Source: Companilactobacillus zhachilii
GTDB lineage: Bacteria; Bacillota; Bacilli; Lactobacillales; Lactobacillaceae
Length of the DNA: 64,000 nucleotides
Assembly: GCF_003606365.2 (NCBI RefSeq)
Contig: NZ_CP031933.2
Span: 1,612,001-1,676,000, forward strand
Direction: 5' to 3'
Shown: positions 6,541 to 46,174 of the stretch, one piece after another
Layout: every line of letters begins with the position of its first letter
Numbering within the stretch: position 1 is the stretch's first letter
Notes under the pieces: model-generated
Told to the model about the DNA's origin: nothing
The model's database searches: none
What the model saw: only the letters and a program-made list of their open reading frames with translations
Made by a program: the position numbers and the translations under genes

Positions 6541-6716
6541 GCCGGAAAGAGCAAGAAATTTTTGGTCGCTGTGAAGGTGATGTTAGGGATTTATCCCTTA
6601 CATCACGGGACGAGTTTTGAAACTCGCGATTTGTGCGAGGTTCAAAATCGAGCCGAAAGACCTTGGCTTTCGGCGGTCCCTATAGCGACCAAAAATTTCT
6701 TACTCTTGGAGGCGGC
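6541..6716 (+). repeat. family A structured repeat, copy A1
   Basis: About 176 bp lying between two plus-strand genes, in an otherwise gene-free stretch (6413-6839). A closing stem (AAGAAATTTTTGGTCGCT with its exact complement, plus AGAG/CTCT) encloses three hairpins: GTGATGTTAGGGA-TTTA-TCCCTTACATCAC, TTTTGAA-CTCGC with GCGAG-TTCAAAA, and GCCGAAAG with CTTTCGGC. The 5' flank AATAAACTA is shared with copy A2. The stem bases differ from other copies while pairing is kept. Confidence 0.9.
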
Positions 6717-6839
6717 ACATTTACCCAGCACCATACGTATTTCTATCATTATTCAATAAAATATTTTTAAGAATCTTATTCACAACCATAAGTCAAAAAT
6801 TATATAATGTATAAAATTGATTTAAGAGGGAGTTATTTT

Positions 6840-8426
6840 ATGATTCTAATTGCACTATCAGCGGTCATCTTGCCACTAGTTTTACTAGGCATCCTCAACA
6901 TGCCAGCCACTAAGGGCATGTCGATCAGTGCATTCATTGTTTTATTAGAGGGATTTTTCTTTTGGAAAATGCCCACAACCGTTCTACTGGCTTCAATTAT
7001 GCAATCAATTCATAAGGCGTTACCGATCTTATGGATTTTGTTTGGAGCCTTGATGATGTTAAATATCTTACAGCACACTGGAGCGATTGAACGCATTAAC
7101 GCCGGGTTCCATACTATTTCTGCTGACATGCGGTTACAAGTTTTATTAGTTGCCTTTTTATTCGGTGGACTAATCGAAGGTGTCTCCGGATTCGGTACTC
7201 CAGCAATGGTTACAGCTCCATTAATGATTGCTTTAGGTTTTTCACCAATGGCAGCTGTAACTTTGGCATTAGTTGCTGACTCAACTCCAGCCGCTTTTGG
7301 GGCAGTTGGTACACCATTAACCGTCGGACTTAGTAACGTTAGTGAAAAAGCCGACTTTCTTAATGCTATCGGTCAACGTATTACCCAGTTAGACTTATTT
7401 GCAGGGACATTCATGCCCTTGATTTTAGTTTTGATGTTAACTTTTCTATTCGGCAAAAAAGATACCAATCATCTGAAAGACTTTTTAACGCTAGTACCTT
7501 GGTCGCTCTTTATCGGCATCACTTATAGTCTGTTTGCACTTTTAGTATCATTTACAATCAGTTATGAATTCGTAGCAATCTTAGCACCATTTGCCACAAT
7601 TATTATTGCTATTATTTCAATTAAACTTAAATTCTTACTACCAAAATCAGTCTTTGAACATCCCTGGACCACTTCAACACAAACAGTTAAGTCAGACAAT
7701 AAGATGTCACTCTTAACTGCTTGGTCACCATACATTGTCGTTATTTTGATGCTATTGGCGACTCGTACAATTAATCCACTTAAAAATTTCTTAGTCACAA
7801 ATGTCAATTTATCGTGGAAAAATATTCTCGGATTCTCACAAATTAATTCAGACTGGGAATTCCTTTATTCACCCGGAACCCTATTAACAATTGCGGTTAT
7901 CATTGGTCTGTTGCTCCAAGTTAAATCACTCAAAAGTTTCTTGCCAATTGCCAAAAGAGTGGCTTTCTCAATGAGATCAACTGCCTTAGCCTTAATCGTA
8001 ACTTTAATAATGGTACAAATTTTCACCAACTCTGAATTGAATAATGCTAATTTACCCAGTATGCCCATGTTTATAGCAAAAGTTATCTCCAAATACTTAT
8101 CATCAGTTTGGATTATCATTGCCCCATTCCTTGGCCAACTAGGATCATTCGTTACAGGAAGCACGACCGTTTCAACCTTGACCTTTGGCCAAATCCAAGC
8201 TGATATTGCTGCTAAAGCGGGTGTCGGTAAAGATTTAGTCTTGGCAGCACAACTAATCGGTGCTGCCGCCGGAAATATGATTTGTGTACATAATATCGTT
8301 TCAGTCAGTTCCGTAGTTGGATTGTCTGGACAAGAAGGAAATATCTTACGTAAAACCGTTGTTCCAGCTTTATTTTACAGTTTACTCGTTGGAATCATTG
8401 GTTTTATCTTCACATTATTTATGTAA
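6840..8426 (+). CDS. lctP: L-lactate permease family transporter (LctP)
   Basis: This 528-residue membrane protein has about 12-14 hydrophobic helices and the LctP signatures GGLIEGVSGFGTPAMVTAPL near residue 105 and DSTPAAFGAVGTPLTVG near 144, with a late FLGQLGSFVTGSTTVSTLTF and AAGNMICVHNIVSVSSVVG. It should move lactate (or glycolate) with protons across the membrane. The start is the ATG preceded by AAGAGGGAG, not the earlier ATG that would add 11 residues. A TATAAT-like box lies at 6803-6808. With D-lactate dehydrogenase elsewhere in the window it fits lactate export or re-uptake. It is monocistronic. Confidence 0.92.
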   Translation: MILIALSAVILPLVLLGILNMPATKGMSISAFIVLLEGFFFWKMPTTVLLASIMQSIHKALPILWILFGALMMLNILQHTGAIERINAGFHTISADMRLQVLLVAFLFGGLIEGVSGFGTPAMVTAPLMIALGFSPMAAVTLALVADSTPAAFGAVGTPLTVGLSNVSEKADFLNAIGQRITQLDLFAGTFMPLILVLMLTFLFGKKDTNHLKDFLTLVPWSLFIGITYSLFALLVSFTISYEFVAILAPFATIIIAIISIKLKFLLPKSVFEHPWTTSTQTVKSDNKMSLLTAWSPYIVVILMLLATRTINPLKNFLVTNVNLSWKNILGFSQINSDWEFLYSPGTLLTIAVIIGLLLQVKSLKSFLPIAKRVAFSMRSTALALIVTLIMVQIFTNSELNNANLPSMPMFIAKVISKYLSSVWIIIAPFLGQLGSFVTGSTTVSTLTFGQIQADIAAKAGVGKDLVLAAQLIGAAAGNMICVHNIVSVSSVVGLSGQEGNILRKTVVPALFYSLLVGIIGFIFTLFM

Positions 8427-8441
8427 AATACAGTCAGATTT

Positions 8442-8528
8442 TTAGCATTAAAACAATGGCTCCAGTAATCCATTTTGAGATTACTGGAGCCATTTGCTTT
8501 CAATAAAAACTGTTGTTTTGTTGCTTGT
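8442..8528 (+). repeat. family B hairpin repeat, partial copy B5
   Basis: Starts just after lctP. The hairpin ATGGCTCCAGTAATC pairs exactly with GATTACTGGAGCCAT. The flanks TAGCATTAA and TGTTGTTTTGTTGC are degraded versions of the family B flanks. It may also help terminate lctP, although the T tract is weak. Confidence 0.7.
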
Positions 8529-8725
8529 CGATGACTCTTAACCGTAGATAATTTTCTTAAAAGTCTATTTCGACTACATTAACAATCCTTCTTAACAGAT
8601 TTAGGTTATTGAAAGATTCAAGATAGAATTTAATTTATAGTGTTCCGTTTATTCAAAGCACAAATATACTAATTGATGTATATAAAATTCAATATTATTC
8701 TGTATAAAAAACAACGAATAAACTA

Positions 8726-8908
8726 GCCGGAAGGAGCAATAAAATTAGATTGCTGTGAAGGTGGCGTTAGACACTTTAGTGCTTACACCACGGGACGAGC
8801 TTTGAAACTCGCGGTTTTTGCGAGGTTCAAAGTCGAGATTCGAGACCGCTCTCTGACTCGAATCGGTCCCCACAGCGACCTAATCTTATTGCTCCTGGAG
8901 GTGTCGGC
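8726..8908 (+). repeat. family A structured repeat, copy A2
   Basis: About 183 bp in the lctP-ABC convergent gap (8427-9057). Closing stem GGAGCAATAA...TTATTGCTCC. Inner hairpins include CTTTGAA-CTCGC with GCGAG-TTCAAAG, and GATTCGAG with CTCGAATC. Outermost GCCG pairs with CGGC. Three closing-stem positions are A opposite C on the plus strand, which are U-G wobbles on the minus strand. Confidence 0.9.
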
Positions 8909-8938
8909 ATATCACCAATTACAAAGCTAGATAACATT

Positions 8939-8978
8939 AAAAAGGTGTTCAGTTCACTCCGAACCGAACACCTTTTTT
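8939..8978. terminator. bidirectional intrinsic terminator
   Basis: AAGGTGTTC-A-GTTC pairs with GAAC-C-GAACACCTT, followed by six Ts on the plus strand and by TTTTTAATG on the minus strand. It serves the ABC operon on the minus strand and anything read through from lctP. Confidence 0.85.
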
Positions 8979-9057
8979 AATATTTTTTTGATTTCCATAA
9001 TCTATTATAGTCAGACTTGTGCAAGCATGTTTAAACAACGAATCAAAGATAATTTTT

Positions 9058-9837
9058 TTAAACTTCTTTTCTCGAGAAGAAAAATAAACCTATTGCCATA
9101 AATAATACGATATACAGTATATTGCCCATTAACATCTGATTATTACTCAAGTGCGTCAGTCTAGAAAGTAATTCTCCTCTGCTCAATTGGCTGGGATAGT
9201 TTAAAAAATTCAGTGGATTCCATTTTAAGAAATTCCATCTTTCAATTAAGATAAACATCAATGAACTAATAACTTCCAAGGTAAAGTACCCCACGACACC
9301 CACTACGACGGCCAATGCACCCTTCTTCATTACGGCAGCTAATAAGAGTACAACGCTCAAGATTAACCAAAGTGTAATAAAAGTGGCTCCATTACTAATC
9401 AGCCAGCTTTGCCAAACCAAATTAGTACCGCCACTCACCTTATCATTTAGCGAAAAGGTAGTGTTAAAGAAAACAAACTTATCGACCAAACTCAAAATCA
9501 TGGCCAACAAGTAGATTGCCACTGAATAAGTTAAAATAGTTAACCACTTGCTGACTAAAACTTGGCCACGCGAATACGGCTGCATCACTACATTCTTAAT
9601 CGTATTGTATTCAAACTCTGTCGAAATAATCGTGGCACTGGCTGCAATCATGATCAATGAAATAAATGATGTCGAGGCAAAGTCATACTGAAATAATAAT
9701 TTTGCTTCAAAGAATTTTGAATATGATTGGCTAAAAATTGCCATACCAATATTTTGTAACACGATAAATAACAGACAGAACCAGAGACTCCGCTTTTTTA
9801 ACAACTTAAAAATTTCTTGTTTATATAAATAGCCCAT
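9058..9837 (-). CDS. ABC-2 type transporter permease
   Basis: A 259-residue protein with about six membrane segments, starting MGYLYKQEIFKLLKKRSLW as in the permeases of bacitracin/lantibiotic-type ABC exporters (BcrB-like), with the typical STEFEYNTIKNV segment near residue 72. It follows the ATPase gene by nine bases, so they are one operon. Because the ATPase gene is frameshifted, export function may be lost or depend on reinitiation. Substrate is unknown; antimicrobial-peptide immunity is one possibility from the family. Confidence 0.85.
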   Translation of the reverse strand: MGYLYKQEIFKLLKKRSLWFCLLFIVLQNIGMAIFSQSYSKFFEAKLLFQYDFASTSFISLIMIAASATIISTEFEYNTIKNVVMQPYSRGQVLVSKWLTILTYSVAIYLLAMILSLVDKFVFFNTTFSLNDKVSGGTNLVWQSWLISNGATFITLWLILSVVLLLAAVMKKGALAVVVGVVGYFTLEVISSLMFILIERWNFLKWNPLNFLNYPSQLSRGELLSRLTHLSNNQMLMGNILYIVLFMAIGLFFFSRKEV

Positions 9838-9846
9838 AATCTTCTC

Positions 9847-10739
9847 CTATTCTGCAATTAGTTGCAAAATTGATTCTTCTAAATCAGCATCTTCATGCTG
9901 TAAATCAGTCACATTAATTTGCTGTTTCATCAAAATATTCATCAATCTTTCAACGGTATTTTTTTCGGTCAAAGCAAAGCGCAATGGCGATTGTGAGACA
10001 GTTTTAAAACCAACCACCTCTAATAATTCTTGTGCCTTGGTATCATCACTAGTTTTAATTACGATGAAATGTTGATTACTGGCTAATAATTCGTTCATGG
10101 TAGTTCTTTTGATAACTTTTCCATGGTCAATCACGATCAAATCTTCGGCTAATTTTTGTAATTCACCTAAAATATGACTGGATATCAAAACCGTCAAACC
10201 TTGATCTCTTCGTTTCAAAATCATTTCACGTAAATCTTTTGTTGCTTGTGGATCCAAACCATTCATAGGTTCATCAAGGATAACTAGATCAGGCTGGTTG
10301 ACCAAAGCCATCGCAATTCCTAATTTTTGCTTCATCCCTAAAGAGTACAATTTGGCTCTTTGGTCAATATAATCGTTCAATTTCAAATCATTAATAATTG
10401 TTTGAATACGTTCTTGACTATCCTTTGAATCGTTCACAAATAATTTAAGGTGATCTCTTCCACTTAAGTATGGATAAATGCCTGGATACTCAACTAATGC
10501 TCCGACTTTTTGTAAAATGGGATGGTGGTTGAAGGTAGTTTTTTGACCATCAATAGTTATCTGACCTTCACTTTTGATCAAACTTAAAATGGCCTTCATT
10601 ATTGTAGTCTTGCCGGCACCATTAGCCCCAACTAAACCAATGATATGCCCTTTTGACATTCAAAATTAATATCAAATAGCGTCTGTCTGTTACCAAAAGA
10701 CTTATTTAAATTTTTAACTGATAAAATTATTTCTTCCAA
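9847..10739 (-). pseudogene. ABC transporter ATP-binding protein, apparent -1 frameshift near its N terminus
   Basis: The main frame encodes 270 residues with Walker A GANGAGKTT, the LYSLGMKQKLGIAMAL signature, Walker B LVILDEPMNGLDP and a switch His. It begins abruptly at MSKGHIIGLVGANG, lacking the first beta strands every such ATPase has. Those residues (IILSVKNLNKSFGN, then QTLFDINFECQKG) are present just upstream in another frame, starting at a TTG with GGAGG seven bases before it. One extra A in the run at 10651-10654 would join the two into a normal protein of about 298 residues. The ORF's own ATG overlaps a TGA in its frame, so reinitiation could yield a truncated product. It could be a true mutation, a sequencing error in a homopolymer, or rarely a recoding site. 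Confidence 0.8.
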
Positions 10740-10786
10740 AATCTTGCCTCCATTTGAAGTCTCCCTAATCCCCATCTAATCCGATA

Positions 10787-10816
10787 ATTAAAGTCTATCG
10801 AAGTATTGATTTTCAA
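10787..10816 (-). promoter_or_regulatory. candidate promoter of the ABC operon
   Basis: On the minus strand TTGAAA and TTTAAT are 18 bases apart, about 50 bases before the TTG start. The match is moderate. Confidence 0.4.
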
Positions 10817-10902
10817 GATATTCAAATAAGTAATTTTTCAAATTTTTTTCAGAACGTAAAAAAACATGTAACAAAACACAGTTAACCTTCCAGCATAAAA
10901 AT

Positions 10903-10944
10903 AAACAAAACTAGCTATCCTAAACTGGACGACTAGTTTTGTTT
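10903..10944 (-). terminator. terminator of the pyr operon
   Basis: On the minus strand AAACAAAACTAG pairs with CTAGTTTTGTTT, with an inner TCC/GGA, followed by ATTTTTATG. It lies about 70 bases past the pyrD stop. Confidence 0.8.
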
Positions 10945-11011
10945 GTTTTAAGAGGAAAATACTATGTTTCATTACACGTTTAAGTAAAAATCACAGAACT
11001 TCTTCTAATAA

Positions 11012-12160
11012 TTATTCAAGAAATGAAGCGCCTGAATTAGCATCTAATTCAATTTTTTTCTTGTCATCAATATCGGTAACGACAACATCTTCACTAGCTC
11101 GCACTGGAACTTCTGCAATCTTAGGTGAATACGTTACTTTTTGTAAAACATCATTCTTAGAAAGATATTGGTTAATTTGATTGATCATAGTTGGACCATT
11201 ATAAATAAATCCTGTATAAACTTGTACCAAACTTGCTCCAGCCATTAATGCCGCTTGTGCATCTTCGGGTGTAAAAACACCACCGGAAAACATAATTGGC
11301 AAATCTGGGAATGCTTGATGGATAGCCTTTGTTAAGCTCAATGATTTTTTAAAAATTGGCTTCCCACTAAGTCCGCCACCTTCATTCTTATGCTCAGATT
11401 TCAAATTATCATGAACAGAACTAGGATTGGCAGCAGTATTAGTCAAAATCACTCCGTCTATCAAATGACCTACTTCAGTTAACAATTCAATCAGTTTTTC
11501 AGAAGTGATATCATTGCCAAACTTACAAAAAATTGGTTCCTTGATATGCAAATTATGGATTTTTTGAAGTAATTTTTTAGCCACGGGAATTTCTTGTAAC
11601 GTCGTTACACCCTTTTGATTAGGACAACTTTGATTTAACGCAATGTAGTCACCAAATGAGTGAATCTGTGCAATATTATCGACCATTTCATCAATCATAC
11701 TGTCGCTATCTAACCCATGTCCCGGAGCAACGCTGATACCAATCTTAACGTGTTTAGGCGTATTGGCTAGATGTTTTCTAGTTTCTTCCACGCCGACATT
11801 ATTTAAACCCATGCGGTTAATAATTGCTTGATCTTGGGGCAAACGAAAAATTCTCTTTTTCTTGTTACCTGGTTGTTCATTTTTAGTAATACTACCAATT
11901 TCAACAAAGCCAGCGCCTAAAGCACCCAAACTATTATAGAACTCAGCCTTTTTATCAAAACCAGCTGCAATACCAATTGGTGAATCAAAAGTTACACCCT
12001 TAACTGTCACACTCAAATTAGCATAGTTTTTTGTTCGAAACATCGTTCGTAACACTTGTGGCGTTTGATTAAACACTTTTAAACCAGTCGCTACCAAATG
12101 ATGATCAACTTCTGGGTCTACTTTGAAAATTGCCGGACGAACTAATTTGTATAAGTCCAT
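11012..12160 (-). CDS. pyrD: dihydroorotate dehydrogenase, class 2-like
   Basis: A 382-residue flavoprotein oxidising dihydroorotate to orotate. The N terminus (MDLYKLVRPAIFKVDPEVDH, then about 25 more residues) matches the membrane-associated helices of quinone-dependent class 2 enzymes, as do NRMGLNNVG near 115, GGGLSGKPIF, IMFSGGVFTPEDA and LVQVYTGFIYNGP. At the catalytic-base position the sequence reads NQSCPN with Cys179, whereas class 2 enzymes normally carry Ser in SSPN and class 1 enzymes carry Cys. The C terminus runs about 45 residues beyond the barrel. It is the last gene of the operon and overlaps pyrE by one base (TAATG). Confidence 0.93.
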   Translation of the reverse strand: MDLYKLVRPAIFKVDPEVDHHLVATGLKVFNQTPQVLRTMFRTKNYANLSVTVKGVTFDSPIGIAAGFDKKAEFYNSLGALGAGFVEIGSITKNEQPGNKKKRIFRLPQDQAIINRMGLNNVGVEETRKHLANTPKHVKIGISVAPGHGLDSDSMIDEMVDNIAQIHSFGDYIALNQSCPNQKGVTTLQEIPVAKKLLQKIHNLHIKEPIFCKFGNDITSEKLIELLTEVGHLIDGVILTNTAANPSSVHDNLKSEHKNEGGGLSGKPIFKKSLSLTKAIHQAFPDLPIMFSGGVFTPEDAQAALMAGASLVQVYTGFIYNGPTMINQINQYLSKNDVLQKVTYSPKIAEVPVRASEDVVVTDIDDKKKIELDANSGASFLE

Positions 12161-12798
12161 TATTTACCCCAGCTTTCTGGGTCTTGATACCATTGTTTTA
12201 ATAATTCCATATCATTTGCTTCAACATAATTTTGTTCTTGGGCAACTTCAATCATGGTTGGATAGTCTGTCAATGTGAACAATTGCGTATCATAGTCAGC
12301 AAAGTTTTGAGTGCTTTCTGGCAAGCCATATGAAAAAATTGCCACGGTCCCAATCACGTCGCCACCTTCTTCACGAACCGCCTTAACAGCCTTTAAAATA
12401 CTACCACCAGTTGAAATTAAGTCATCAATTAGAACAACTTTATCACCTTTTTGACAACGACCTTCGATTTGACTCTTCTTACCATGATCCTTCTTTTGAG
12501 GACGAACATAGTTTAAAGGTAAATTCAAGATGTTAGACACACCAGTAGCATGAGGAATTCCTGCCGTGGCAACACCACCGATAACTTCAGCATCGGGATA
12601 GTGTTCTTTAATCAATTCAGCTAAATCATGTGCAATTGTTTGGCGGAAATCTGGATAAGCAATCGTTAGACGGTTATCCGTATAAATGGGAGCTTTAATA
12701 CCACTGGCCCATGTGAATGGCTCTTTGGGACTTAATGTAACCGCCTTAATTTTTAATAATTGTCCGGCAATATTATTTGCAACTGCTAATTCATCCAT
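12160..12798 (-). CDS. pyrE: orotate phosphoribosyltransferase
   Basis: A 212-residue type I phosphoribosyltransferase converting orotate and PRPP to OMP. The PRPP-binding loop is VVLIDDLISTGGSIL near residue 120. PFTWASGIKAPIYTDNR near 24 and VIGGVATAGIPHATGVS near 77 are typical of PyrE. Start and stop both overlap neighbours by one base in TAATG, giving tight translational coupling between pyrF, pyrE and pyrD. Confidence 0.96.
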   Translation of the reverse strand: MDELAVANNIAGQLLKIKAVTLSPKEPFTWASGIKAPIYTDNRLTIAYPDFRQTIAHDLAELIKEHYPDAEVIGGVATAGIPHATGVSNILNLPLNYVRPQKKDHGKKSQIEGRCQKGDKVVLIDDLISTGGSILKAVKAVREEGGDVIGTVAIFSYGLPESTQNFADYDTQLFTLTDYPTMIEVAQEQNYVEANDMELLKQWYQDPESWGK

Positions 12799-15731: not shown

Positions 15732-15808
15732 CTAAAAGTTTGGAATTATTCCGACCTTTTAGACCTCACTGGATCCATTTAAAAGTTCCCTGATTTTCTT
15801 TAAGTAAA

Positions 15809-15843
15809 CAAAAAACTTCCTATCCCACAAGGAAAGGAAGTTT
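15809..15843 (-). terminator. pyr attenuator terminator 1
   Basis: AACTTCCT pairs with AGGAAGTT on the minus strand and is followed by a run of Ts (TTTTTTG). It comes right after the first PyrR-type site. Confidence 0.85.
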
Positions 15844-15917
15844 ACACTTTTTTTCGTCATATGTGTAAGTAACCTTCCAAGCCTCACAGGACTTGATTAA
15901 AAGTTTTCGTTGGAAAT

Positions 15918-15965: not shown

Positions 15966-16139
15966 GCGGCCGTCGGAAGAGCGGGGAAAAATTAACTGGC
16001 TATGCGGACCGAGCCGAGCCAAGGTCTCGTCTCTCGGTTTGAAGCCTTGCAAGCAAGTCTCCAAACACGCCCGGTGGGGTAAGAGCTAAAGCTCTAACGC
16101 CACTTTCACAGCCAGTTAATTTTTCCCCGCTCTTCCGAC
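15966..16139 (-). repeat. family A structured repeat, copy A3
   Basis: Inverted orientation relative to A1. The closing stem is a perfect 30-bp inverted repeat (15972-16001 with 16110-16139). Inner hairpins read, in family orientation, GTTAGAGC-TTTA-GCTCTTAC, GTTTGGAG-CTTGC with GCAAG-CTTCAAAC, and a GAG/CGAG stem with an ACCTTGG loop. It belongs to the second subtype (linker CACCGGGCGTG), lies just upstream of the pyr promoter, and occupies part of the 778-bp gap 15686-16463. Confidence 0.92.
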
Positions 16140-16284
16140 TAATTTATTTTTAAACGCTCAGATGTTTTCTCAAGTTACTTTGAATAAACTTTGGATATAT
16201 ACAATTTGGCAATTTTTACGAAATTATATCTTAAACTCAAAGTGCCAAACTTCAAAAAAGAAGTTTGGGAAAAACTATTATTAA

Positions 16285-16420
16285 CTTTAAACATGCGGCA
16301 TAAACGTGGAACAAAACATAGCTTTTTCCGCTTAAAACAAATAGCCCAGCAATCCAAAATCGGATTACTGGGGCTATTTGCCTTAATGCTCGAAAGCTGA
16401 ACATGTTTTGTCCCACTCTC
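16285..16420 (-). repeat. family B hairpin repeat, copy B1
   Basis: An approximately 136-bp extended hairpin. The outer stem is GTGGAACAAAACAT with ATGTTTTGTCCCAC. A middle loop region follows. The tip is AAATAGCC(C)AGCAATCC with GGATTACTGGGGCTATTT. It lies 43 bp past the tyrS stop. Confidence 0.88.
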
Positions 16421-16463
16421 TCCCAATATTAATTACACTTATTCAAAAATAAATATTTGATTA

Positions 16464-17708
16464 TTATTTAACTGTTGCCAAGAAATACTTCTTCTTACCA
16501 CGACGGATAACAATGTACTTACCATCAAATGAATCTTTAGGATTGATTTCCATTGTTGTGTCTGTCAATCTTTCGCCGTTGATTCTGATTGCACCATTTT
16601 GAATATCTTCACGTGCTTGACGCTTTGATTTATCGACGTTTGTTGCAATTAATAGATCAACTAAGTTGATTGGATCGGCTGAGATTTCTGCACTTGGTAC
16701 TCCATGGAAGGCTTCAGCTACTTCTTCTGTTGTTAACTCTTGGATTTCTCCTGAGAAGAGTACGTCTGTAATCTTTTCAGCTGTCTTCAAGGCTTCTTCA
16801 CCGTGGACAAACTTAGTAACCTCTTCAGCTAAAGTCTTTTGAGCTAAACGTTTTTCAGGTGCTGTTTTAACTGATTCTGCCAAGTCTTCAATTTGTTCCT
16901 TTGTTAGGAATGTGAATTTCTTCAACAAATTGATAACGTCTTTATCATCTTGATTGAACCAGAATTGATAAAATTCGTAAGGGGATGTCTTCTTAGGATC
17001 AAGCCATACGGCACCACCAGCTGTCTTACCAAATTTAGTACCATCTGCTTTCAACAATAATGGAATTGTCAATGCATAAACTTTAGCATCTTGACCTTCG
17101 GCTTTATGGATCAAATCAAGTCCAGCGGTTAAGTTACCCCATTGGTCACCACCACCAACTTGTAATTGAACGTTATGTTTACGATATAGTGTCAAGAAAT
17201 CTAGCGATTGAAGAATTTGGTATGTAAATTCAGTAAATGAAATACCTACTTCCAAACGGCTTGAAATAATTTCCTTATTAAGCATTGTATTAACGTTGAA
17301 CAACTTACCATAGTCACGCAAGAAGTCCAAAATACCAATAGGTTCTGTCCAGTCATAATTATTAACCATTGTAAAGCCACTGAAAATCTTGTTAGCTTGG
17401 GCACTTAAAGCTTCAACATTATGGTTAACTTGGTCCATTGTTTGCATTGGACGTTCAGCTTTCTTACCACTTGGATCACCAATAGAACCAGTAGCACCAC
17501 CAATAACGATGTATGGATGATGACCAAACTTGCCAAATCTCTCCAATGTCATAAATGGCAATAAATGTCCGATATGCATGGAATCACCTGTTGGATCCAT
17601 ACCACAGTATAGTGAGATATCCTTTGAATCAACTAATTCACGTAAACCTTCTTCGTCAGATTGTTGGTTGATCAGACCACGCCATGATAATTCGTCAATA
17701 ATATTCAT
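16464..17708 (-). CDS. tyrS: tyrosyl-tRNA synthetase
   Basis: A 414-residue class I synthetase attaching tyrosine to its tRNA. The HIGH-type motif is SMHIGHLLPF near residue 44, YGMD-type LYCGMDPTGDS just before it binds tyrosine and ATP, and KFGKT in GTKFGKTAGGAVWL near 230 is the KMSKS loop. A C-terminal S4-like domain (about 350-414) ends the protein. The start is the ATG in MNIIDELSWRG with AGGAGGAA seven bases upstream; a longer ORF reaching into the T-box leader is not translated. It is controlled by an upstream T-box. Confidence 0.96.
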   Translation of the reverse strand: MNIIDELSWRGLINQQSDEEGLRELVDSKDISLYCGMDPTGDSMHIGHLLPFMTLERFGKFGHHPYIVIGGATGSIGDPSGKKAERPMQTMDQVNHNVEALSAQANKIFSGFTMVNNYDWTEPIGILDFLRDYGKLFNVNTMLNKEIISSRLEVGISFTEFTYQILQSLDFLTLYRKHNVQLQVGGGDQWGNLTAGLDLIHKAEGQDAKVYALTIPLLLKADGTKFGKTAGGAVWLDPKKTSPYEFYQFWFNQDDKDVINLLKKFTFLTKEQIEDLAESVKTAPEKRLAQKTLAEEVTKFVHGEEALKTAEKITDVLFSGEIQELTTEEVAEAFHGVPSAEISADPINLVDLLIATNVDKSKRQAREDIQNGAIRINGERLTDTTMEINPKDSFDGKYIVIRRGKKKYFLATVK

Positions 17709-18628: not shown

Positions 18629-18749
18629 GGTTCTTTCTCAATTTTGGTTATAGAATCGAATATAAAAGGGCTAGATATGTTTTTCTGGTATAAATCCAGA
18701 AAAAACATCTAGCATTTTACTTATGTTCAATTTCAAATAATATAGCACT
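18629..18749 (+). repeat. family C hairpin repeat, copy C1
   Basis: Flank GGTTCTTTCTCAATTTTGG, then a hairpin GCTAGAT...TTTTTCTGG pairing with CCAGAAAAA...ATCTAGC (18670-18713), then TTATGTTCAATTTCAAATAATA. The outer AT-rich parts can also pair (GAATCGAATATAA with TTATGTTCAATTTC). It lies 20 bp after the phosphatase gene and may end its transcript. Confidence 0.82.
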
Positions 18750-18795
18750 CGTTTATCGAATTGGTTACATCGTATTAAAAATAATAAATGTATTA

Positions 18796-18973
18796 GTCTC
18801 TGGATGCAAGAAATGTTGGCAGCAGTGAAGGTGGCGTTGGCGCTTTAGCACCTACACCACGGGACGAGTTTTGAAATTCGCGCACTTTGCGAAGTTCAAA
18901 ATCGAGATTGGAGACCGCACTCCGGCTCCAATCGGTCCCCACAGCGCCAACATTTCTTGCACCCAGAGACGGC
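18796..18973 (+). repeat. family A structured repeat, copy A4
   Basis: Closing stem GTCTCTGG...CCAGAGAC extended by TGCAAGAAATGTTGGC with GCCAACATTTCTTGCA. Inner hairpins are GGCGC-TTTA-GCACC, TTTTGAA-TTCGC with GCGAA-TTCAAAA, and GATTGGAG with CTCCAATC. Its outer end differs from the GCCGG end of A1, A2 and A8. It fills most of the gap 18610-19047. Confidence 0.9.
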
Positions 18974-18998
18974 AACTAACCAAATTTAAGAAAGAACC

Positions 18999-21055: not shown

Positions 21056-21196
21056 GTCTTTAAACATGCAGCATAAACGTGGAACAAAACATAGCTTTTT
21101 TTGCTTAAAACAAATGGTCCCAGCAATCCAAATTCGGATTACTGGGACCATTTGCCTTAACGCTCGAAAGCTGAACATGTTCTGTTCCACTCTCTC
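21056..21196 (-). repeat. family B hairpin repeat, copy B2
   Basis: Outer stem GTGGAACA-A-AACAT with ATGTT-C-TGTTCCAC, tip AAATGGTCCCAGCAATCC with GGATTACTGGGACCATTT. Compared with B1, the tip pair GCC/GGC has become GTCC/GGAC on both sides. It sits between clpX and tig. Confidence 0.9.
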
Positions 21197-28101: not shown

Positions 28102-28236
28102 AGAGTGGAACAAAGCATGTTCAGCTTTCGAGCGTTAAGGCAATGGCGCCAGTAATCCGATTTCGGATTGCTGGCGCCATTTGTTTTAAGCGAAAAAAGC
28201 TATGCTTTGTTGCACGTTTATACTGCATGTTTAAGA
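28102..28236 (+). repeat. family B hairpin repeat, copy B4
   Basis: Opposite orientation to B1-B3. Outer stem GTGGAACAAAGCAT with ATGCTTTGTTGCAC, tip ATGGCGCCAGTAATCC with GGATTGCTGGCGCCAT. Compared with B1 and B2, the outer stem AAAACAT/ATGTTTT has changed to AAAGCAT/ATGCTTT on both arms. Confidence 0.9.
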
Positions 28237-28269
28237 CAAAAACAGTTATGTAACAGCCCCTATCTTTTT

Positions 28270-37958: not shown

Positions 37959-37960
37959 CA

Positions 37961-39017: not shown

Positions 39018-39064
39018 ACAATAAACCCCTCTCATTTTTCAAATACAATCAAAGGTTGAACACT

Positions 39065-39127
39065 GCCGCCTCCAAGAGCAAGGAATTTAGGTCCCCACAG
39101 CGACCTAAATTCCTTGCTCTTTCCGGC
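39065..39127 (-). repeat. family A miniature copy A5 (closing stem only)
   Basis: A 63-bp remnant with a perfect 19-bp stem (39075-39093 with 39102-39120) and only eight loop bases (CCCACAGC). The outer ends GCCG/CCGGC match A1, A2 and A8. All three inner hairpins are gone. Confidence 0.9.
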
Positions 39128-39260
39128 TAATTCATTTTTCAATTTAATAATGAATAATTTTATTATTACATCATTGATTACTCTAGTGCAGGATATAAAG
39201 TAGATATCTATTCATAAGATATCTACTTTTACCAGTATCCCTTTTACAGAATAACCAAGT

Positions 39261-39432
39261 GGAAGAGCTGATAAATAGTCACTGGCTGTGAAAGTGGTGT
39301 TAGTGCTTTAACACTTACAACACCGAGCGCGTTTGAAGACTCGCTGGTTTTGCGAGGCCTCAAACCGAGACTTGAGACATCGGCTCAAGTCAGTCCGCAC
39401 AGCCAGTGACTATTTATCAGCTCTGGAGCCGG
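39261..39432 (+). repeat. family A structured repeat, copy A6
   Basis: A perfect 27-bp closing stem (39264-39290 with 39398-39424). Inner hairpins are GTTAGTGC-TTTA-ACACTTAC, GTTTGAAG-CTCGC with GCGAG...CTCAAAC, and GACTTGAG with CTCAAGTC. It lies in the 536-bp gap 39018-39553 with A5 and a terminator. Confidence 0.92.
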
Positions 39433-39462
39433 AACCCTTAATCAACCTTTAGTCTACTATAC

Positions 39463-39493: not shown

Positions 39494-39553
39494 GGTTAAT
39501 TAATTCATTTAGTATACGAAACGATATTATTTCGGTTTCTAAATAAGTTTTCT

Positions 39554-40981
39554 CTAAATATGTGTTGGATAACCAATCAAAATATCGGCAGCTTCTTGAA
39601 TTGGTTCGCCTAATGTTGGATGTGGATGAATTGTAAGAGCAATATCTTCCGCATTCAATTGACAATTTACAGCAACACTCAATTCAGAAATCAAATCACT
39701 GGCACCTGGTCCAACAATTTGACCACCCAATAATGTACCGGTATCCTTTTGAGCTACTAATTTAACAAATCCTTCAGCAGCATCCAATGAAACGGCACGA
39801 GCATTACCAGCAAATGGGAATTTAGCTACTTTTACTTCAATATTCTTATCTTTAGCATCTTGTTCTGTCAAACCGACACTAGCTAACTCAGGATCAGTGA
39901 AACAAACGGCAGGAACGCCAATGTAATCATTTGCTGTATTCTTACCAGAAATTGCTCCAGCAACTGTCTTAGCTTCAAAGAAAGCTTTGTGAGCCAAAGC
40001 TGGACCTGGAGTAATGTCACCAATGGCATAAATGTGATCAACTGAAGTCTTTCCTTGTTCATCGACTTCGACCAGACCTCTGTCAGTTGTTTTAACATTT
40101 GTCATTTCCAAGCCAAAGTTATCTGTGTTAGGACGACGACCAACAGTTACCATACAGTAGTCAGCACTAAGAGTTGTTGGTTTACCGTCAACTTCATATG
40201 TAACATCGACGCTATCACCTTTATTTTCACTCTTCTTAGCCATGGCATTAGTAATAATCGTAACGCCTTTTTTCTCAAGGTTCTTTTTAACGATTGAAAC
40301 CATATCTTTTTCAAAATTAGGAATAATGCTTGGTGAGCCTTCAAGAATTGTAACGTGTGAACCAAGGTCGGCATAAGCACCAGCTAATTCAGTTCCGACA
40401 TAACCACCACCAATGATGATGAATTCCTTAGGAACTTCTTTCAAATTCAAACCACCGGTTGAATCAATCACACGATCATCAAACTTGAAACCTCTAATTT
40501 CAATAGGACGACTACCAGTTGCCAAAATCAAATTCTTAAACTTGATGGTTTGACCACCACCGTTATCCATAAATTGTCTAGGACCACTTGGCATAACACG
40601 TAATTGTGTATCACTGTCCAAATATGCTTCACCATTGATTAATTCAACGTGATGTTTCTTCAAAAGCATTTGAACACCGCCAGTCATTCTGGCAACAACT
40701 TTTTCATCTTTCCAAGCTTGCGTCTTGGTAAAGTCAATTGTGGCATCACTTGTGGTAATTCCGTATGTTGAAGAATCTTTAGCTTGTTGAAGTCTGTGTC
40801 CAGCTGTAATTAAAGCTTTTGATGGAACACAACCAACATTTAGACAAACACCACCAACGGTATCAGACTTTTCAATTACGGTAACATCTTGTCCAAGTTC
40901 TGAAGCTCTGATTGCGGCAACGTAACCACCAGGGCCTGAACCAATAATAACGGTATCTTTTTCTATTACGTTTTCTGCCAT
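39554..40981 (-). CDS. pdhD: dihydrolipoyl dehydrogenase (E3)
   Basis: A 475-residue FAD/NAD flavoprotein reoxidising lipoamide. The FAD loop is VIIGSGPGGYVAAIRASELG near residue 11, the redox disulfide GGVCLNVGCVPSKAL near 43 and the NAD loop IIGGGYVGTELAGAYADLGS near 188. The catalytic pair is in TIHPHPTLGE near 451. It is the last gene of pdhABCD, six bases after pdhC. Confidence 0.97.
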   Translation of the reverse strand: MAENVIEKDTVIIGSGPGGYVAAIRASELGQDVTVIEKSDTVGGVCLNVGCVPSKALITAGHRLQQAKDSSTYGITTSDATIDFTKTQAWKDEKVVARMTGGVQMLLKKHHVELINGEAYLDSDTQLRVMPSGPRQFMDNGGGQTIKFKNLILATGSRPIEIRGFKFDDRVIDSTGGLNLKEVPKEFIIIGGGYVGTELAGAYADLGSHVTILEGSPSIIPNFEKDMVSIVKKNLEKKGVTIITNAMAKKSENKGDSVDVTYEVDGKPTTLSADYCMVTVGRRPNTDNFGLEMTNVKTTDRGLVEVDEQGKTSVDHIYAIGDITPGPALAHKAFFEAKTVAGAISGKNTANDYIGVPAVCFTDPELASVGLTEQDAKDKNIEVKVAKFPFAGNARAVSLDAAEGFVKLVAQKDTGTLLGGQIVGPGASDLISELSVAVNCQLNAEDIALTIHPHPTLGEPIQEAADILIGYPTHI

Positions 40982-40987
40982 TTTAAT

Positions 40988-42286
40988 TTAGCCCTCCATT
41001 AATAACATATCTGGATCATGCAACAATTTCTTCAAGAGATTTAAAGCATTTTGGGCTAAGGCACCATCAATCAATCTGTGATCATAGCTCAATGATAACT
41101 TCAACATATTACCTACTTGAATATTGCCATCTTCATCAACATATGGTTCTTTAGCAATCTTACCAACACCAAGAATTGCAACTTCTGGGTAATTGATAAC
41201 TGGTGTGAACCAGCCACCACCGATTGAACCAACGTTACTGATTGTAATAGAACCACCACTCATCTTATCCATGCTTAACTTGTTGTCGTAAGCAGCTTGA
41301 CTATTTTCAGTGATTTCTTTAGCAATTTCAAACATACCTTTAGAATCAACGTTCTTAACATTTGGAACGTATAATCCATGTTCAGTATTTGTTGCAATAC
41401 CGACGTTGTAATAATGCTTGTAGACGATTTCTTCAGTTGAATCATCAATTGAAGCATTTAATTCTGGATATTCTTTCATAACGGCCACTAAGGCTTTGAC
41501 GATATATGGCAAGAATGTCAAATGAATACCTTTATCAGCAGCAATTGCCTTATATTTCTTTCTATTGGCCATCAAAGCTGAAACTTCAACATCATCAAAA
41601 CTTGTAACGTGTGGAGCTGTGTGCTTGCTTGTCAACATTGCCTTTGCAATAGCTTTTCTTGTAAGTGACATCTTTTCACGAGTTTCAAGTTCAGGTGTAG
41701 CTGATTTGTAAGGGGTAATTGGTTGTGCAGGTGCACTGGCATTTGCTGCAGGTGCAGCTGGAGTACTAGCTGAAGCAGGAGCTGCTGCAACTGGATTACC
41801 ACTCTTATAGGAGTCAACATCCGCTTTCGTGACTTGACCATGTTTACCACTTGGTGTAACAGCAGCAAGATCAACTCCTTGATCACGGGCATATTGACGA
41901 ACTGATGGCATTGCTAAGTAGTTTGTATTTGCCGAACCAGTAGCGGGACCAGCAGGTTGTGCAGGTGTTGATGAAGCAGTCTCAGGAGCTTGTGCTGCTT
42001 TCTCTTCTGCCTTTGGAGCTGATGTTTCATCATCGCCACTGTCAGGAGAACCATCGTCAATTACGATCAATGTATCACCGATTTCTACGGTATCTCCTTC
42101 TTTAGCTACAATTTGTTTAACAGTCCCAGCAACAGGAGATGGTAGTTCTTCAACGGATTTATCATTTTGAATTTCTACTAAGGAGTCATCTTCTTTGACA
42201 GTATCTCCCTCTTTTACTAGCCAGCTAGCAATCTCACCTTCGGCCATACCTTCGCCAAGCTCTGGTAATTTAAATTTGTATGCCAT
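40988..42286 (-). CDS. pdhC: dihydrolipoamide acetyltransferase (E2), single lipoyl domain
   Basis: A 432-residue core subunit. The lipoyl domain covers residues 1-77 with the lipoylated Lys in EIQNDKSVEELPSP near 44. A Pro/Ala/Thr-rich linker and peripheral subunit-binding domain (LAMPSVRQYARDQGVDLAAV near 128) follow, with a second Ala/Pro linker and then the catalytic domain ending in SYDHRLIDGALA near 403. It has one lipoyl domain rather than two or three. Very repetitive Gln/Ala codons in the linker give ORFs in other frames. Confidence 0.97.
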   Translation of the reverse strand: MAYKFKLPELGEGMAEGEIASWLVKEGDTVKEDDSLVEIQNDKSVEELPSPVAGTVKQIVAKEGDTVEIGDTLIVIDDGSPDSGDDETSAPKAEEKAAQAPETASSTPAQPAGPATGSANTNYLAMPSVRQYARDQGVDLAAVTPSGKHGQVTKADVDSYKSGNPVAAAPASASTPAAPAANASAPAQPITPYKSATPELETREKMSLTRKAIAKAMLTSKHTAPHVTSFDDVEVSALMANRKKYKAIAADKGIHLTFLPYIVKALVAVMKEYPELNASIDDSTEEIVYKHYYNVGIATNTEHGLYVPNVKNVDSKGMFEIAKEITENSQAAYDNKLSMDKMSGGSITISNVGSIGGGWFTPVINYPEVAILGVGKIAKEPYVDEDGNIQVGNMLKLSLSYDHRLIDGALAQNALNLLKKLLHDPDMLLMEG

Positions 42287-42310
42287 AGTTTTGTCCCTTC
42301 CTTCGATTAA

Positions 42311-43288
42311 TTAGTAGTTGAGAATTTCATTTACTTTTTCTTCAATTTCTTTAGCACGTGGAATCCAGATGTCTTCACCAAGAGCAAATGGATAAACACT
42401 ATTTGGAGCAGCAACTCTACCAACTGGTGCATCGAGAGAAAGAATGGCACCTTCAGCAATAGCTGAAGCAACTTGGGCACCAACACCCGCCATCTTTTGT
42501 GCTTCTTGGACGATTACAACTTTATGAGTCTTTTGAATAGATTTGAAAATTGTTTCGGTATCAATTGGTGAAACGGTTCTCAAATCGATTACTTCAACTG
42601 AAACATTCTTTTCAGCTAAAGTATCAGCCACTTTAAGAGCTTCATTTACTTCGGCACCATAAGCGACAATTGTAATATCGTTACCTTCACGAACAACGTT
42701 TGCTTTGTCCAAAGGTACAGTATATTTGCCATCAGGAATATCGTCTTTCATTGAACGATATAGCTTCAAGTTTTCCATAAATAGCACTGGATCGTTATTT
42801 TCAACTGATGAAATCAACAAGCCCTTTGCATCATATGGGTTACTTGGCATAACAACACGTAAACCAGGAATTCCGGTAAAGAAGTTTTCCAAGTTATCAG
42901 CATGCATTTCAGCTGTATGTGTACCACCACCATAAGGTGTTCTGATTGTTACAGGGGCATTTTTAAGTCCATCAAATCTAAAACGCATTCTAGCTAATTG
43001 ACCAGCAATTTGATCAACCGCTTCAAATGAGAAGCCCATAAATTGAATTTCAGGAATTGGACGCCAACCAGTTAAACCTAAACCAGTTGCTAATCCTAAA
43101 ATACCTGATTCAGCTAAAGGTGTATCGAAGACACGGTCCTCACCATATTTATCTTGAAGTCCTTGAGTAGTTCTGAAAACACCACCATTTTTACCAACAT
43201 CTTCACCGAAGATCAATGTTTTTGGATCGTCTTCCAGAACAATGTCTAAGGCATCTGTAATTGCTTGAATGTAAGTTTTCTTAGCCAT
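42311..43288 (-). CDS. pdhB: pyruvate dehydrogenase E1 component subunit beta
   Basis: A 325-residue thiamine-diphosphate enzyme half (MAKKTYIQAITDALD). FGEDVGKNGGVFRTTQGL near residue 27, PIPEIQFMGFSFEAVDQIAG near 77 and the C-terminal swap motif VIVQEAQKMAGVGAQVAS near 253 are intact. It pairs with PdhA to decarboxylate pyruvate and is two bases after it. Confidence 0.97.
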   Translation of the reverse strand: MAKKTYIQAITDALDIVLEDDPKTLIFGEDVGKNGGVFRTTQGLQDKYGEDRVFDTPLAESGILGLATGLGLTGWRPIPEIQFMGFSFEAVDQIAGQLARMRFRFDGLKNAPVTIRTPYGGGTHTAEMHADNLENFFTGIPGLRVVMPSNPYDAKGLLISSVENNDPVLFMENLKLYRSMKDDIPDGKYTVPLDKANVVREGNDITIVAYGAEVNEALKVADTLAEKNVSVEVIDLRTVSPIDTETIFKSIQKTHKVVIVQEAQKMAGVGAQVASAIAEGAILSLDAPVGRVAAPNSVYPFALGEDIWIPRAKEIEEKVNEILNY

Positions 43289-43290
43289 TT

Positions 43291-44394
43291 TTACTTCGAC
43301 TCCTTTGCTTCAAATTTATCAATTTCTTGTTTCATTTCTGGAGTTGGAATTTCAAATGTACGTTTCAACATATCGGAAACTTTATCAGGAGCAACGTTAT
43401 CTGCTTCCTTAATAGCTTCCTTAAATGAAGCTTTGTATTCATCAACTAATTTATCTTCTTGTTCTTCTGACCAAAGTCCTTTATCTTCAAGAACTTTTCT
43501 CAAACGAATCAATGGATCCTTTTCGAACCAAGGTTGTTCTTGTTCCTTAGTTCTGTAACGCTTAGGATCATCACCAGCACTTGAGTGAGCACCGAAACGA
43601 TATGTCAAGGTTTCAATCATAACTGGACCATTACCAGCTACCATGTAATCACGGGCAGCTTTAGCAACAGCATAACAAGCTAAGATATCCATCCCATCAA
43701 CTTGGACACTTGGAATACCTGCAGCAACAGCTTTTTGAGCTAGAGTTGGAGCAGCAGTTTGTTTAACACGAGGTGTTGAAATTGCAAAACCATTATTTTG
43801 AACAATGAAAAGAACTGGTGCTTGATAGGCACCGGCAAAGTTCATACCTTCGTAACTATCACCTTGAGAAGTACCACCATCACCTGTATAAGTGAAAGCA
43901 ATTGTATCTTCTTCTTTATTCTTCTTAATACCTAAACCAACACCGGCAGCTTCAACATAAGCAGCACCGATAATGATTTGTGGCATCATTGAACGAGCTT
44001 TAAATTTATTACCAACAACGTGGCCTCTTGACCAAAGATATGCTTCAGTCACAGTTGCACCGTGTTGAATCAATTGAGGAACATCACGATAAGCTGGAAG
44101 CAAGTAATCTTGTTTCTTCATTGCCAAAACAGTTCCCATCTCGGAAGCTTCCTCACCTTCAGTAGGTGCATAGAATCCCATACGTCCTTGACGTGAAAAG
44201 TTCATTGTTTGTTCGTGTAGTGCACGCTCCCAAACCATCTTCTTCATAAATTCAACTAAATCATCATCAGAAAAAGTATCAAAGATCTCTTGATCTGTTA
44301 TTTCAGCGTTTTCATTCAAAACTTGAATGGGTTTTGAAACATTCGATAAGTTATTCTTAATTGCTTCAAAATCAACAATTGGTTTATTTGCCAT
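43291..44394 (-). CDS. pdhA: pyruvate dehydrogenase E1 component subunit alpha
   Basis: A 367-residue thiamine-diphosphate-binding subunit. The ThDP motif is GDGGTSQGDSYEGMNFAGAY near residue 166, and the phosphorylation-loop-like GAHSSAGDDPKRYR lies near 275. The start is taken as MANKPIVDFEA with AGGA nine bases upstream; upstream ATGs would add up to ten residues. It is first in the pdhABCD operon, feeding acetyl-CoA. Confidence 0.95.
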   Translation of the reverse strand: MANKPIVDFEAIKNNLSNVSKPIQVLNENAEITDQEIFDTFSDDDLVEFMKKMVWERALHEQTMNFSRQGRMGFYAPTEGEEASEMGTVLAMKKQDYLLPAYRDVPQLIQHGATVTEAYLWSRGHVVGNKFKARSMMPQIIIGAAYVEAAGVGLGIKKNKEEDTIAFTYTGDGGTSQGDSYEGMNFAGAYQAPVLFIVQNNGFAISTPRVKQTAAPTLAQKAVAAGIPSVQVDGMDILACYAVAKAARDYMVAGNGPVMIETLTYRFGAHSSAGDDPKRYRTKEQEQPWFEKDPLIRLRKVLEDKGLWSEEQEDKLVDEYKASFKEAIKEADNVAPDKVSDMLKRTFEIPTPEMKQEIDKFEAKESK

Positions 44395-44545
44395 TCTCCA
44401 CAGTCCTTTCATAAAAAAACTCATCCCTTGTGAACATTGTAAGGGTTTTCATATAATTTTAGTCTAACATTGATCTGCCAAAAAACAAGTGGTTTAGGCA
44501 TTCATCAACGAAAAAAATTTTCCTAATTGCTTGTGAAAAAAGTAA

Positions 44546-45544
44546 CTATTTTTCCAAATTTATTTCATTTTCAGAAGTTCCCTTAGTCAATTCTGACATC
44601 ATGGAATTCAATGAAATAGTAGCCATGTTCTTAACTGCCTTGGTCGTATAGAACGCGATATGTGGCGTTAAAATGAACCTTGGACTTTGAATAACTTTTT
44701 CCAAAAGCTGGTCTGAAAATTCAGCATCCGTTAAGTCAGTATTAAAAATACCCACTTCATTTTCATAAACATCCATCACAGCACCATATAGCTTGCCATT
44801 CGCTACGGCCTCATAGAGATCCTTCGTATTGATCAGATCGCCACGAGCGGTATTTACGACAATGGCGTTATCTTTCATTTCAGAAATGGAATCCTTATTG
44901 ATGACAGTGTGTCCCTTGCCCATACTTGGAATATGCAAAGTGACAACATCCGACTCCTTTAAAAGAGTGTCAAGACTATCAACATAAAGTCCCTCTTTGT
45001 CAATTTCGGGATTGTGAAATTTATCGAAAGCGATTACTTTTGCGCCAAATCCTTGATAAATTTTTATTGCTGCTCGACCAATTCTCCCAGTTCCGGCAAC
45101 CCCGACAGTCAATTGATTTAACTCACGACCAATATCAGGTACCCAACGGAAATCATGTTGGTCCACCTTTCTGATCATATGCTTCATGTTACGTAGCAAA
45201 GCCATCAAACCAGTAACTGAATACTCGGCAATAGCTTCTGGTGAATAACTAGGAACATTGGTTAGACGGATATTATTACGCTTTAAGGCCTCAAAAGGAA
45301 CATTATCAACACCAACATTTCTCAACGAAATAACATGAATCCCATATTCATTCATCGCATCAAAAATCTTTTCATCATATGGCAATTGCTGATAAGCAAC
45401 GATTCCATCAAATCCTTGTGCCATTTTGACTGTTTCAGGGGTCAAAAGATCAGTGACGATTTTTACTTCAACATCATTGTCTTTTGACCATTCTTGAATG
45501 TATTTCTTCTCATCTTCTCTGACACCAAAATCAATTAACTTCAT
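44546..45544 (-). CDS. ldhD: D-lactate dehydrogenase (D-2-hydroxyacid family)
   Basis: A 332-residue NAD-dependent enzyme reducing pyruvate to D-lactate. The NAD loop is GTGRIGRAAI near residue 151. The catalytic triad is Arg234 in NTARGDLI, Glu in MDVYENEVG near 263 and His295 in TPHIAFYTT. The Asp-rich FDKFH segment fits NAD preference. A related D-2-hydroxyisocaproate dehydrogenase cannot be excluded. A promoter lies about 65 bases upstream. It is monocistronic. Confidence 0.93.
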   Translation of the reverse strand: MKLIDFGVREDEKKYIQEWSKDNDVEVKIVTDLLTPETVKMAQGFDGIVAYQQLPYDEKIFDAMNEYGIHVISLRNVGVDNVPFEALKRNNIRLTNVPSYSPEAIAEYSVTGLMALLRNMKHMIRKVDQHDFRWVPDIGRELNQLTVGVAGTGRIGRAAIKIYQGFGAKVIAFDKFHNPEIDKEGLYVDSLDTLLKESDVVTLHIPSMGKGHTVINKDSISEMKDNAIVVNTARGDLINTKDLYEAVANGKLYGAVMDVYENEVGIFNTDLTDAEFSDQLLEKVIQSPRFILTPHIAFYTTKAVKNMATISLNSMMSELTKGTSENEINLEK

Positions 45545-45609
45545 AAGCTAACCTCCAATGATCAACATTTTTATGTAACCTCATGAAATCGGTAACATAT
45601 ACGTTATAT

Positions 45610-45639
45610 ATTTTAGCATGTTGGAGATTATTATCACAA
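45610..45639 (-). promoter_or_regulatory. ldhD promoter
   Basis: TTGTGA and TAAAAT separated by 18 bases on the minus strand, upstream of a leader of about 60 bases. Confidence 0.6.
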
Positions 45640-45657
45640 AGATATAACCTATAGTTT

Positions 45658-45833
45658 CCGTCTCCAGAGCTGAAAAATAGTTACTAGCTATGCGGAACGC
45701 TTCGAGCCAAGGTCTCGAAGCTCGGTTTGAAGCCTCGCAAAAAACGCGAGTCTCCAAACACGCCCGGTAGTGTAATGGCTAAAGCCATAACGCCACTCTC
45801 ACAGCTAGTAACTATTTTTCAGCTCTTCCGACT
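45658..45833 (-). repeat. family A structured repeat, copy A7
   Basis: A perfect 24-bp closing stem (45666-45689 with 45803-45826). In family orientation it holds GTTATGGC-TTTA-GCCATTAC, GTTTGGAG-CTCGC with GCGAG-CTTCAAAC, and GCTTCGAG with CTCGAAGC, loop ACCTTGG. It is nearest to A6, from which it differs by paired changes in the closing stem. Confidence 0.92.
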
Positions 45834-46001
45834 CTTGATATTATTCAGGTCGTAGTATATGAAGAATTTTTTCTTAAAGTCAAAAGTTCCTAAGCAATCT
45901 TTAAATTCTGCCACTACTGACATTTAAAAAGTAAAATTAATATTTACCGTATCTGTTAATATCTATTTTTCAATATTATTCATTAACTAAAAAATCAACT
46001 A

Positions 46002-46174
46002 GCCGGAAGGAACAGAAATTTTGGTCGCTGTGAAGGTGGCGTTAGCACTTTAGTGCTTACACCACGGGACGACTTTTGAAATTCGCGTACCTTGCGAAGT
46101 TCAAAATCGAGGTTCGAGACCTTGGCTCGAACCGGTCCCCATAGCGACCAAAATTTCTTGTTCCTGGAGGCGGC
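46002..46174 (+). repeat. family A structured repeat, copy A8
   Basis: Closing stem GGAACA...TGTTCC with AAATTTTGGTCGCT and AGCGACCAAAATTT. Inner GTTAGCAC-TTTA-GTGCTTAC, TTTTGAA-TTCGC with GCGAA-TTCAAAA, GGTTCGAG with CTCGAACC. It is head-to-head with A7, 168 bp apart, in the 772-bp divergent gap 45545-46316. Confidence 0.92.

Follow-up and report, generated by a model that had tools for sequence, protein, structure and literature searches.

A dispersed folded repeat of about 175 bases, seven full copies of which lie in a 64,000-nucleotide stretch of the Companilactobacillus zhachilii genome (contig NZ_CP031933.2, positions 1,612,001 to 1,676,000; hereafter, the window), is probably a non-autonomous mobile element like the miniature inverted-repeat transposable elements (MITEs); we put the probability of this at roughly 0.6. 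Its copies are scattered across the genome (at least 150 matches in 2.715 Mb), share one fold that has been conserved through compensatory changes, and often stand head-to-head. In related genomes, nearly identical units occur at unrelated sites, and one insertion can be matched to its empty site. A preliminary description, made by a model from the letters of the window, had reported the seven copies and the paired changes in their stems; the head-to-head pairs, the mobility, and a favored strand go beyond it.

One fold, maintained by compensatory changes

Each copy is closed by a stem, inside which come a first hairpin, whose loop is mostly TTTA, and an inner stem of the GGGAC/GTCCC type that encloses two more hairpins. 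All of our genome-wide counts use 150 C. zhachilii copies, which is a lower bound: the true number is higher because many of the 65 full partner copies described below fall outside the 150 matches listed. Across the 150 copies, the ends read about CTA/GCCGGAAGG ... GGAGGCGG/CA (slashes mark the boundaries); beyond them, conservation is weak and reaches about -20 and +16. The mean pairwise identity is 74%, and the nearest other copy is 85% identical in the median case and 94% identical at most.

We aligned the 150 copies from sequence only, without fitting them to a model. The 57 consensus pairs yield 8235 Watson-Crick cells, 186 G-T cells, 46 A-C cells, 73 other combinations, and 10 gapped cells. 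On average, 0.79 of the 57 pairs are broken in a copy, against an expectation of 7.65 for sides that vary independently. The stem columns deviate from the consensus more often (13.7%) than the unpaired columns do (9.4%). We also compared the covariation to a tree-based null (40 alignments simulated on the tree; significance means E up to 0.05), and all nine of the significant column pairs (9/9) lie within the structure. The same is true of 20/20 significant column pairs in a family-wide alignment of 42 copies, which was fitted to the model and hence favors the structure. In each set, 48 pairs of the structure fall short of significance, and many of these hardly vary. The preliminary description had argued from paired base changes in the stems that the fold is selected; those changes are real and beyond chance, and one fold has been kept through them.

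Copies that occupy the same site in two species tell a similar story. Among 18 same-site pairs from C. zhachilii and C. nantensis, we counted 149 double changes from one pair to another and 60 one-sided changes. Five of these pairs (identity 0.59–0.75) look like different lineages, and excluding them leaves 79 versus 31. At some sites (for example, O359907-/L040 and O2396108+/L247), the two species carry copies of different subfamilies in the same orientation, which suggests exchange or re-insertion at fixed sites.

Such an excess of double changes (149:60, or 79:31 without the five divergent sites) would also arise if the covariation came from the DNA itself: template switching or conversion would correct one arm of a quasi-palindrome against the other, and the repeats would otherwise be ordinary relics. 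G-T cells make up just ~2% of the ungapped pair cells in the C. zhachilii copies (186/8540), and because wobble cells are so few, palindrome correction at the DNA level may contribute to the covariation. The orientation of the copies would fit as well: they run against the presumed direction of replication by 100:50 (assuming an origin near coordinate 0), a bias that is clear for single copies (p 0.0005) but not for paired ones (p 0.07). However, correction of the arms should erase mismatches within stems, and in our reading of the alignment these stay unpaired across genera (A-G in GAGAC/GGCTC, and T-T and C-A in the first hairpin). Correction is also strand-neutral, whereas G-T exceeds A-C by 140:30 family-wide. 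The preliminary description had asked whether gene conversion between inverted repeats could explain the covariation; the conserved internal mismatches speak against conversion of the arms, while wobble is rarer than would be expected from selection on an RNA alone. As the whole explanation, arm correction seems quite unlikely to us.

The preliminary description had found the wobble evidence mixed as to which strand folds, and the larger set supersedes this. Among the 150 copies, G-T cells outnumber A-C cells by 186:46, or by 103:46 when one pair, mostly G-T, is left out. The strand that reads GTGAAGGTGG...CCCCAYAGC is therefore the likelier one to fold, as RNA or as single-stranded DNA.

Head-to-head pairs

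For 65 of the 150 copies, a full inverted copy lies head-to-head within 1 kb upstream, at a distance of about 30–530 bp, and no full direct copy was found within 1 kb upstream of any of the 150. Downstream of them there are four full direct copies and no inverted ones. Among the matches listed, all of the close pairs are head-to-head: 7/7 in C. zhachilii (under 700 bp), 26/26 in the related genome G027 (under 600 bp), and 15/15 in another relative, G004. Direct neighbors exist too (for example, in L046). At some sites, either C. zhachilii or C. nantensis has a pair and the other species has a single copy.

In the window, A7 and A8 form a head-to-head pair, and A6 faces a remnant, A5. A covariance model built from its seven full copies (R1; 175 positions and 68 pairs) recovers all seven at 163–188 bits, and the starts agree with those in the preliminary description within 5 bases. 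The other seven R1 matches in the window are these same places on the wrong strand, at 38–49 bits. Two copies (A3 and A7) are on the minus strand. The features are as follows, and full modules are R1 matches.

6541..6715, plus strand: A1, full folded module
8726..8904, plus strand: A2, full folded module
15970..16139, minus strand: A3, full folded module, upstream of the PyrR leader
18796..18972, plus strand: A4, full folded module
18629..18998, no strand: probable whole A4 unit of 370 bp, with inverted terminal repeats like those of the G027 units
About 39050..39152, minus strand: remnant ("A5"), head-to-head with A6; the closing stem is kept and the three hairpins are lost
39258..39432, plus strand: A6, full folded module
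45658..45832, minus strand: A7, full folded module, on the left in a head-to-head pair with A8
45833..46001, no strand: AT-rich spacer that separates A7 from A8
46002..46173, plus strand: A8, full folded module, on the right in the A7/A8 pair

Some of these sites differ between species. About 332 bp around A1 (6414–6745) is missing at the matching place in C. nantensis (L064), and a copy is present at the place that matches A2 in C. huachuanensis (L065). C. nantensis has A3 at the corresponding site, and about 500 bp around it, including a second kind of repeat, is missing in, for example, C. crustorum (L068). This second dispersed repeat is found at 16255–16421, 21060–21195, and 28112–28269 of the window, each ~80% identical to positions 17196–17363 of L064, and it also occupies the region of the A2 site in C. 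nantensis (L064). Next to A3, the leader of an apparent pyr operon carries a PyrR binding site (RF00515) at 15807–15907 on the minus strand. Among PyrB proteins, that of C. nantensis is the nearest, at 96%.

Evidence for mobility

In relatives of C. zhachilii, the element has been mobile. In genome G082, two copies (L288 and L289) are 97% identical across 203 bp and have unrelated flanks. In G004, a unit of ~520 bp, made of two head-to-head halves, is 91–95% identical at three sites, and the fifteen cores aligned from G027 are nearly identical. Near-identical units of 200–520 bp at unrelated sites are what one finds for a MITE. Furthermore, a single copy in G027 (L337) is absent from the genome G006. 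The difference is a 264-bp insertion, and the flanks of the empty site meet within the loop of a terminator.

The units of G027 are bounded by the 16-base sequence TTCTTTCTTAAGTTAG, which has 8 forward and 11 reverse matches in that genome (with at most 1 mismatch; 0 for the reversed control). It has 2 + 4 matches in G006 (reversed control, 1 + 1) and 4 + 2 in G005 (reversed control, 0). The outer flanks of the bounded G027 units pair like the arms of a split terminator, and only 1 of 300 permutations gave a value as low (with a doubtful unit, L329, at -5.1, included). The pairing energies of six units fall into groups (-25.9, -19.7, and -18.6; -13.9 and -11.8; and -4.5), as compared to a mean of -10.7 for mismatched flanks. 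Terminator arms are clearly retained at the ends of three of the six well-bounded units. Just upstream of several near-identical G027 cores (L333–L348), there are terminator-like hairpins whose sequences differ and are compensated; these hairpins seem to travel along with the cores.

If this is a MITE-like element, then the replicating unit would usually be a head-to-head pair of folded modules of 150–200 bp around an AT-rich spacer, with short inverted repeats outside. A transposase provided in trans would recognize the module as folded in RNA or in single-stranded DNA, and insertion would prefer loops just 3' of genes, in intrinsic terminators or in other hairpins. The fold would be kept as the recognition structure, and it may also let the split stem of the terminator re-close. 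Single copies would be units in which one half was lost or was never present.

A more specific proposal, which we offer tentatively as a possibility, is that the element lives inside transcription terminators. The RNA or single-stranded DNA fold would be selected both as the substrate for transposition and for re-closing the split terminator of the host, and insertion would be nearly harmless. Hundreds of modules would be retained and would compensate in place, the family would extend across the order, and the mobilizer would be an enzyme of another kind than the Y1 transposases and the reverse transcriptases.

Several observations weigh against a MITE-like element that spreads in this way. 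Neither an autonomous element nor a transposase was found in the places that we read. Single copies in C. zhachilii are no more decayed than paired ones. The flank matches of L337 and G006 overlap by 5 bases, which is a candidate target duplication; a second alignment (with blastn) has no overlap. The terminal repeat of the G027 type is found at the 3' flank of just 1 of the 150 C. zhachilii copies (A4, allowing up to 7 mismatches), and we found no split-terminator signal in the flanks of the 65 C. zhachilii pairs. Finally, many copies share their site with the sister species, so most of the C. zhachilii copies are not recent insertions.

Candidate mobilizers and carriers

A MITE usually has an autonomous relative with the same ends, but this is not strictly required. 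We considered whether autonomous copies might lie between widely spaced head-to-head cores and rejected this: the enclosed open reading frames (ORFs; L023/L188, L329, and L330) look like ordinary genes, with two of the four wide stretches in G027 (L331 and L332) lying outside the ORF reading. In G027, no pair of terminal repeats that spans a longer element was found, as far as the repeats could be paired. Near one G027 copy, there is a fragment with the helix-turn-helix domain of IS605 OrfB (TnpB-type; L330 3–326, minus strand), which was not linked to the copy.

Inverted doublets with a variable spacer are also a feature of REPINs, as passages of PMC3116915 describe them, so we asked if the element might be of this type and moved by a Y1 (RAYT or IS200/IS605-like) transposase. 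Of 13 genomes tested for the corresponding domain, Y1_Tnp (PF01797), 6 have it. However, it was not found in the genome of C. zhachilii or in the other 7 of the 13, which include three with near-identical copies (G004, G027, and G082), and we consider a Y1-moved REPIN to be highly improbable. Derivation from a retroelement or a group II intron was rejected because the reverse transcriptase domain RVT_1 (PF00078) was not found in the C. zhachilii genome.

We also compared copies to plasmids and phages. With blastn, A2 had no match in either, and L051, L046, the L337 unit, and L053 had no match in plasmids. The L289 form matched five plasmid records, over only ~64 bases of one end, and an R2 search of three of the five found no element. 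This ~64-base end (L363–L365, about 4001–4066) lies beside an ABC-transporter operon on plasmids of Lacticaseibacillus and Liquorilactobacillus; on one of these plasmids, the gene for an IS5-family transposase adjoins it.

Gene context, spread, and relation to structured RNAs

The claim in the preliminary description that all copies are intergenic agrees with the ORFs of the window, and genome-wide, a simple ORF caller placed just 4 of the 150 copies in overlap with an ORF of at least 600 bp. The nearest genes lie 45 times in the opposite-opposite context, 36 in same-same, 36 in opposite-same, and 25 in same-opposite; 8 copies are open on one side. On the 3' side of the copies, the median distance to the gene is 12–112 bp, depending on the context.

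A search of relatives, a check that the preliminary description had proposed, turned up many more copies: 34 of the 36 genomes of the genus Companilactobacillus have matches, as do 109 of 397 genomes (11 of 40 genera) in a family search and 43 of 395 genomes (14 of 80 genera) in an order search. The family and order searches used stricter filters, with 6–7 candidates scored per genome. Beyond the family, ten genomes of genus g43 (probably Streptococcus) have one match each. In one of these, L277, the copy lies between an infB-like gene, whose stop codon it abuts, and an rbfA-like gene that follows (gene names by reading). In L282, a Bacillus-plasmid RNA (RF01691) at 1761–1829 has a distant relative of the element ~100 bases away.

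The short distances to genes on the 3' side would suit a chromosomal family of structured RNAs, whose copies would be transcribed and individually selected (as processing, stability, or termination elements in untranslated regions), with mobility as only the mode of spread. So would the excess of G-T over A-C and the same-site copies, which keep their pairing. Part of a known RNA offers another hint: in single-copy relatives at four loci, the region of the GAGAC...GGCTC hairpin matches positions 149–209 of the 281 positions in the model of SSRC8 (RF02616), and SSRC8 was detected on Northern blots in Streptococcus pyogenes (from a passage of PMC3675131). But this match is partial and below the gathering score of 72 (33.5 bits in L277; 30–36.6 across the four loci), so by Rfam's criterion the element is not a member. 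Other observations also argue against an RNA family: the 140 bases upstream of the copies show no excess of promoter-like sequence, the orientation of the copies to genes is not fixed across the contexts of all 150, and the presence of near-identical units at unrelated sites speaks for mobility. We find this explanation rather doubtful, and we prefer a MITE-like element.

More broadly, a known Rfam family was rejected because there was no match at or above the gathering score over copies of the element, in keeping with the preliminary description, which knew of no named family with this layout. At the gathering score, the window contains only PyrR, and a permissive scan of 6400–9000 gave nothing that overlaps A1 or A2. 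Nine loci from other genera gave only the TPP riboswitch, and among eleven loci from outside the family, SSRC8_2 appeared below threshold in four.

The repeat is structured and abundant in food lactobacilli, and its covariation within single genomes is very clean; one fold can be compared across at least 150 copies of one chromosome. With it, one could test how miniature elements that bear a fold are moved when no Y1 transposase is involved, and whether such elements stay harmless by inserting into terminator loops whose stem then re-closes. The repeat also lends itself to telling apart two sources of covariation, selection on the fold and palindrome correction.

Comparison to known miniature repeats

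EFAR elements of Enterococcus faecalis are palindromic, often ~170 bp, and variably assembled; they target stem-loops, and the stems remain at their ends. EFAR folds into two stem-loops in an L shape. Judging by this general description, the G027 units with their flanking terminator arms resemble EFAR insertions, and the L-shaped fold differs from the multi-hairpin module described here. EFAR is counted among the bacterial MITEs (PMC3733652).

We compared the element to other families as excerpts of the cited papers describe them. REPINs consist of two imperfect palindromes, inverted and with a variable spacer; they are dispersed and intergenic, and singles occur too (PMC3116915). The element described here likewise forms dispersed intergenic inverted doublets with a variable spacer, as well as singles. 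However, its modules are 150–200 bp and have several hairpins, while REP sequences are 20–40 bp (PMC3733652), and contrary to reports for REPs, its single copies are not more decayed. By the Y1 criterion, the element falls outside the REPINs, given that no Y1 protein was detected in the C. zhachilii genome.

YPAL (or RU-2) of Yersinia is a 168-bp palindromic mobile repeat whose targets span or adjoin dyad symmetries, with target duplications of 3–26 bp (PMC2229807). By description, it is similar in size, palindromic, mobile, and linked to dyad targets; it differs in its host group and in its duplications, as compared to our one doubtful 5-base case. BOX, RUP, and SPRITE of Streptococcus pneumoniae are also numerous small structured interspersed repeats, which are likely MITEs that affect co-transcribed genes (PMC3049150). 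BOX is set apart by its modular A-B-C organization as described, and RUP by its ends, which relate to an IS630 element (PMC2229807); we found no comparable link to an insertion sequence for our element.

In the open PMC literature that we searched (subscription papers are outside its coverage), no title or opening of an abstract among the results describes this family. Our verdict is that it is a structured variant, new among the miniature mobile repeats of bacteria. In how it would work, its nearest counterparts by these accounts are REPINs, for the inverted doublets, and YPAL, for the targets linked to dyads.

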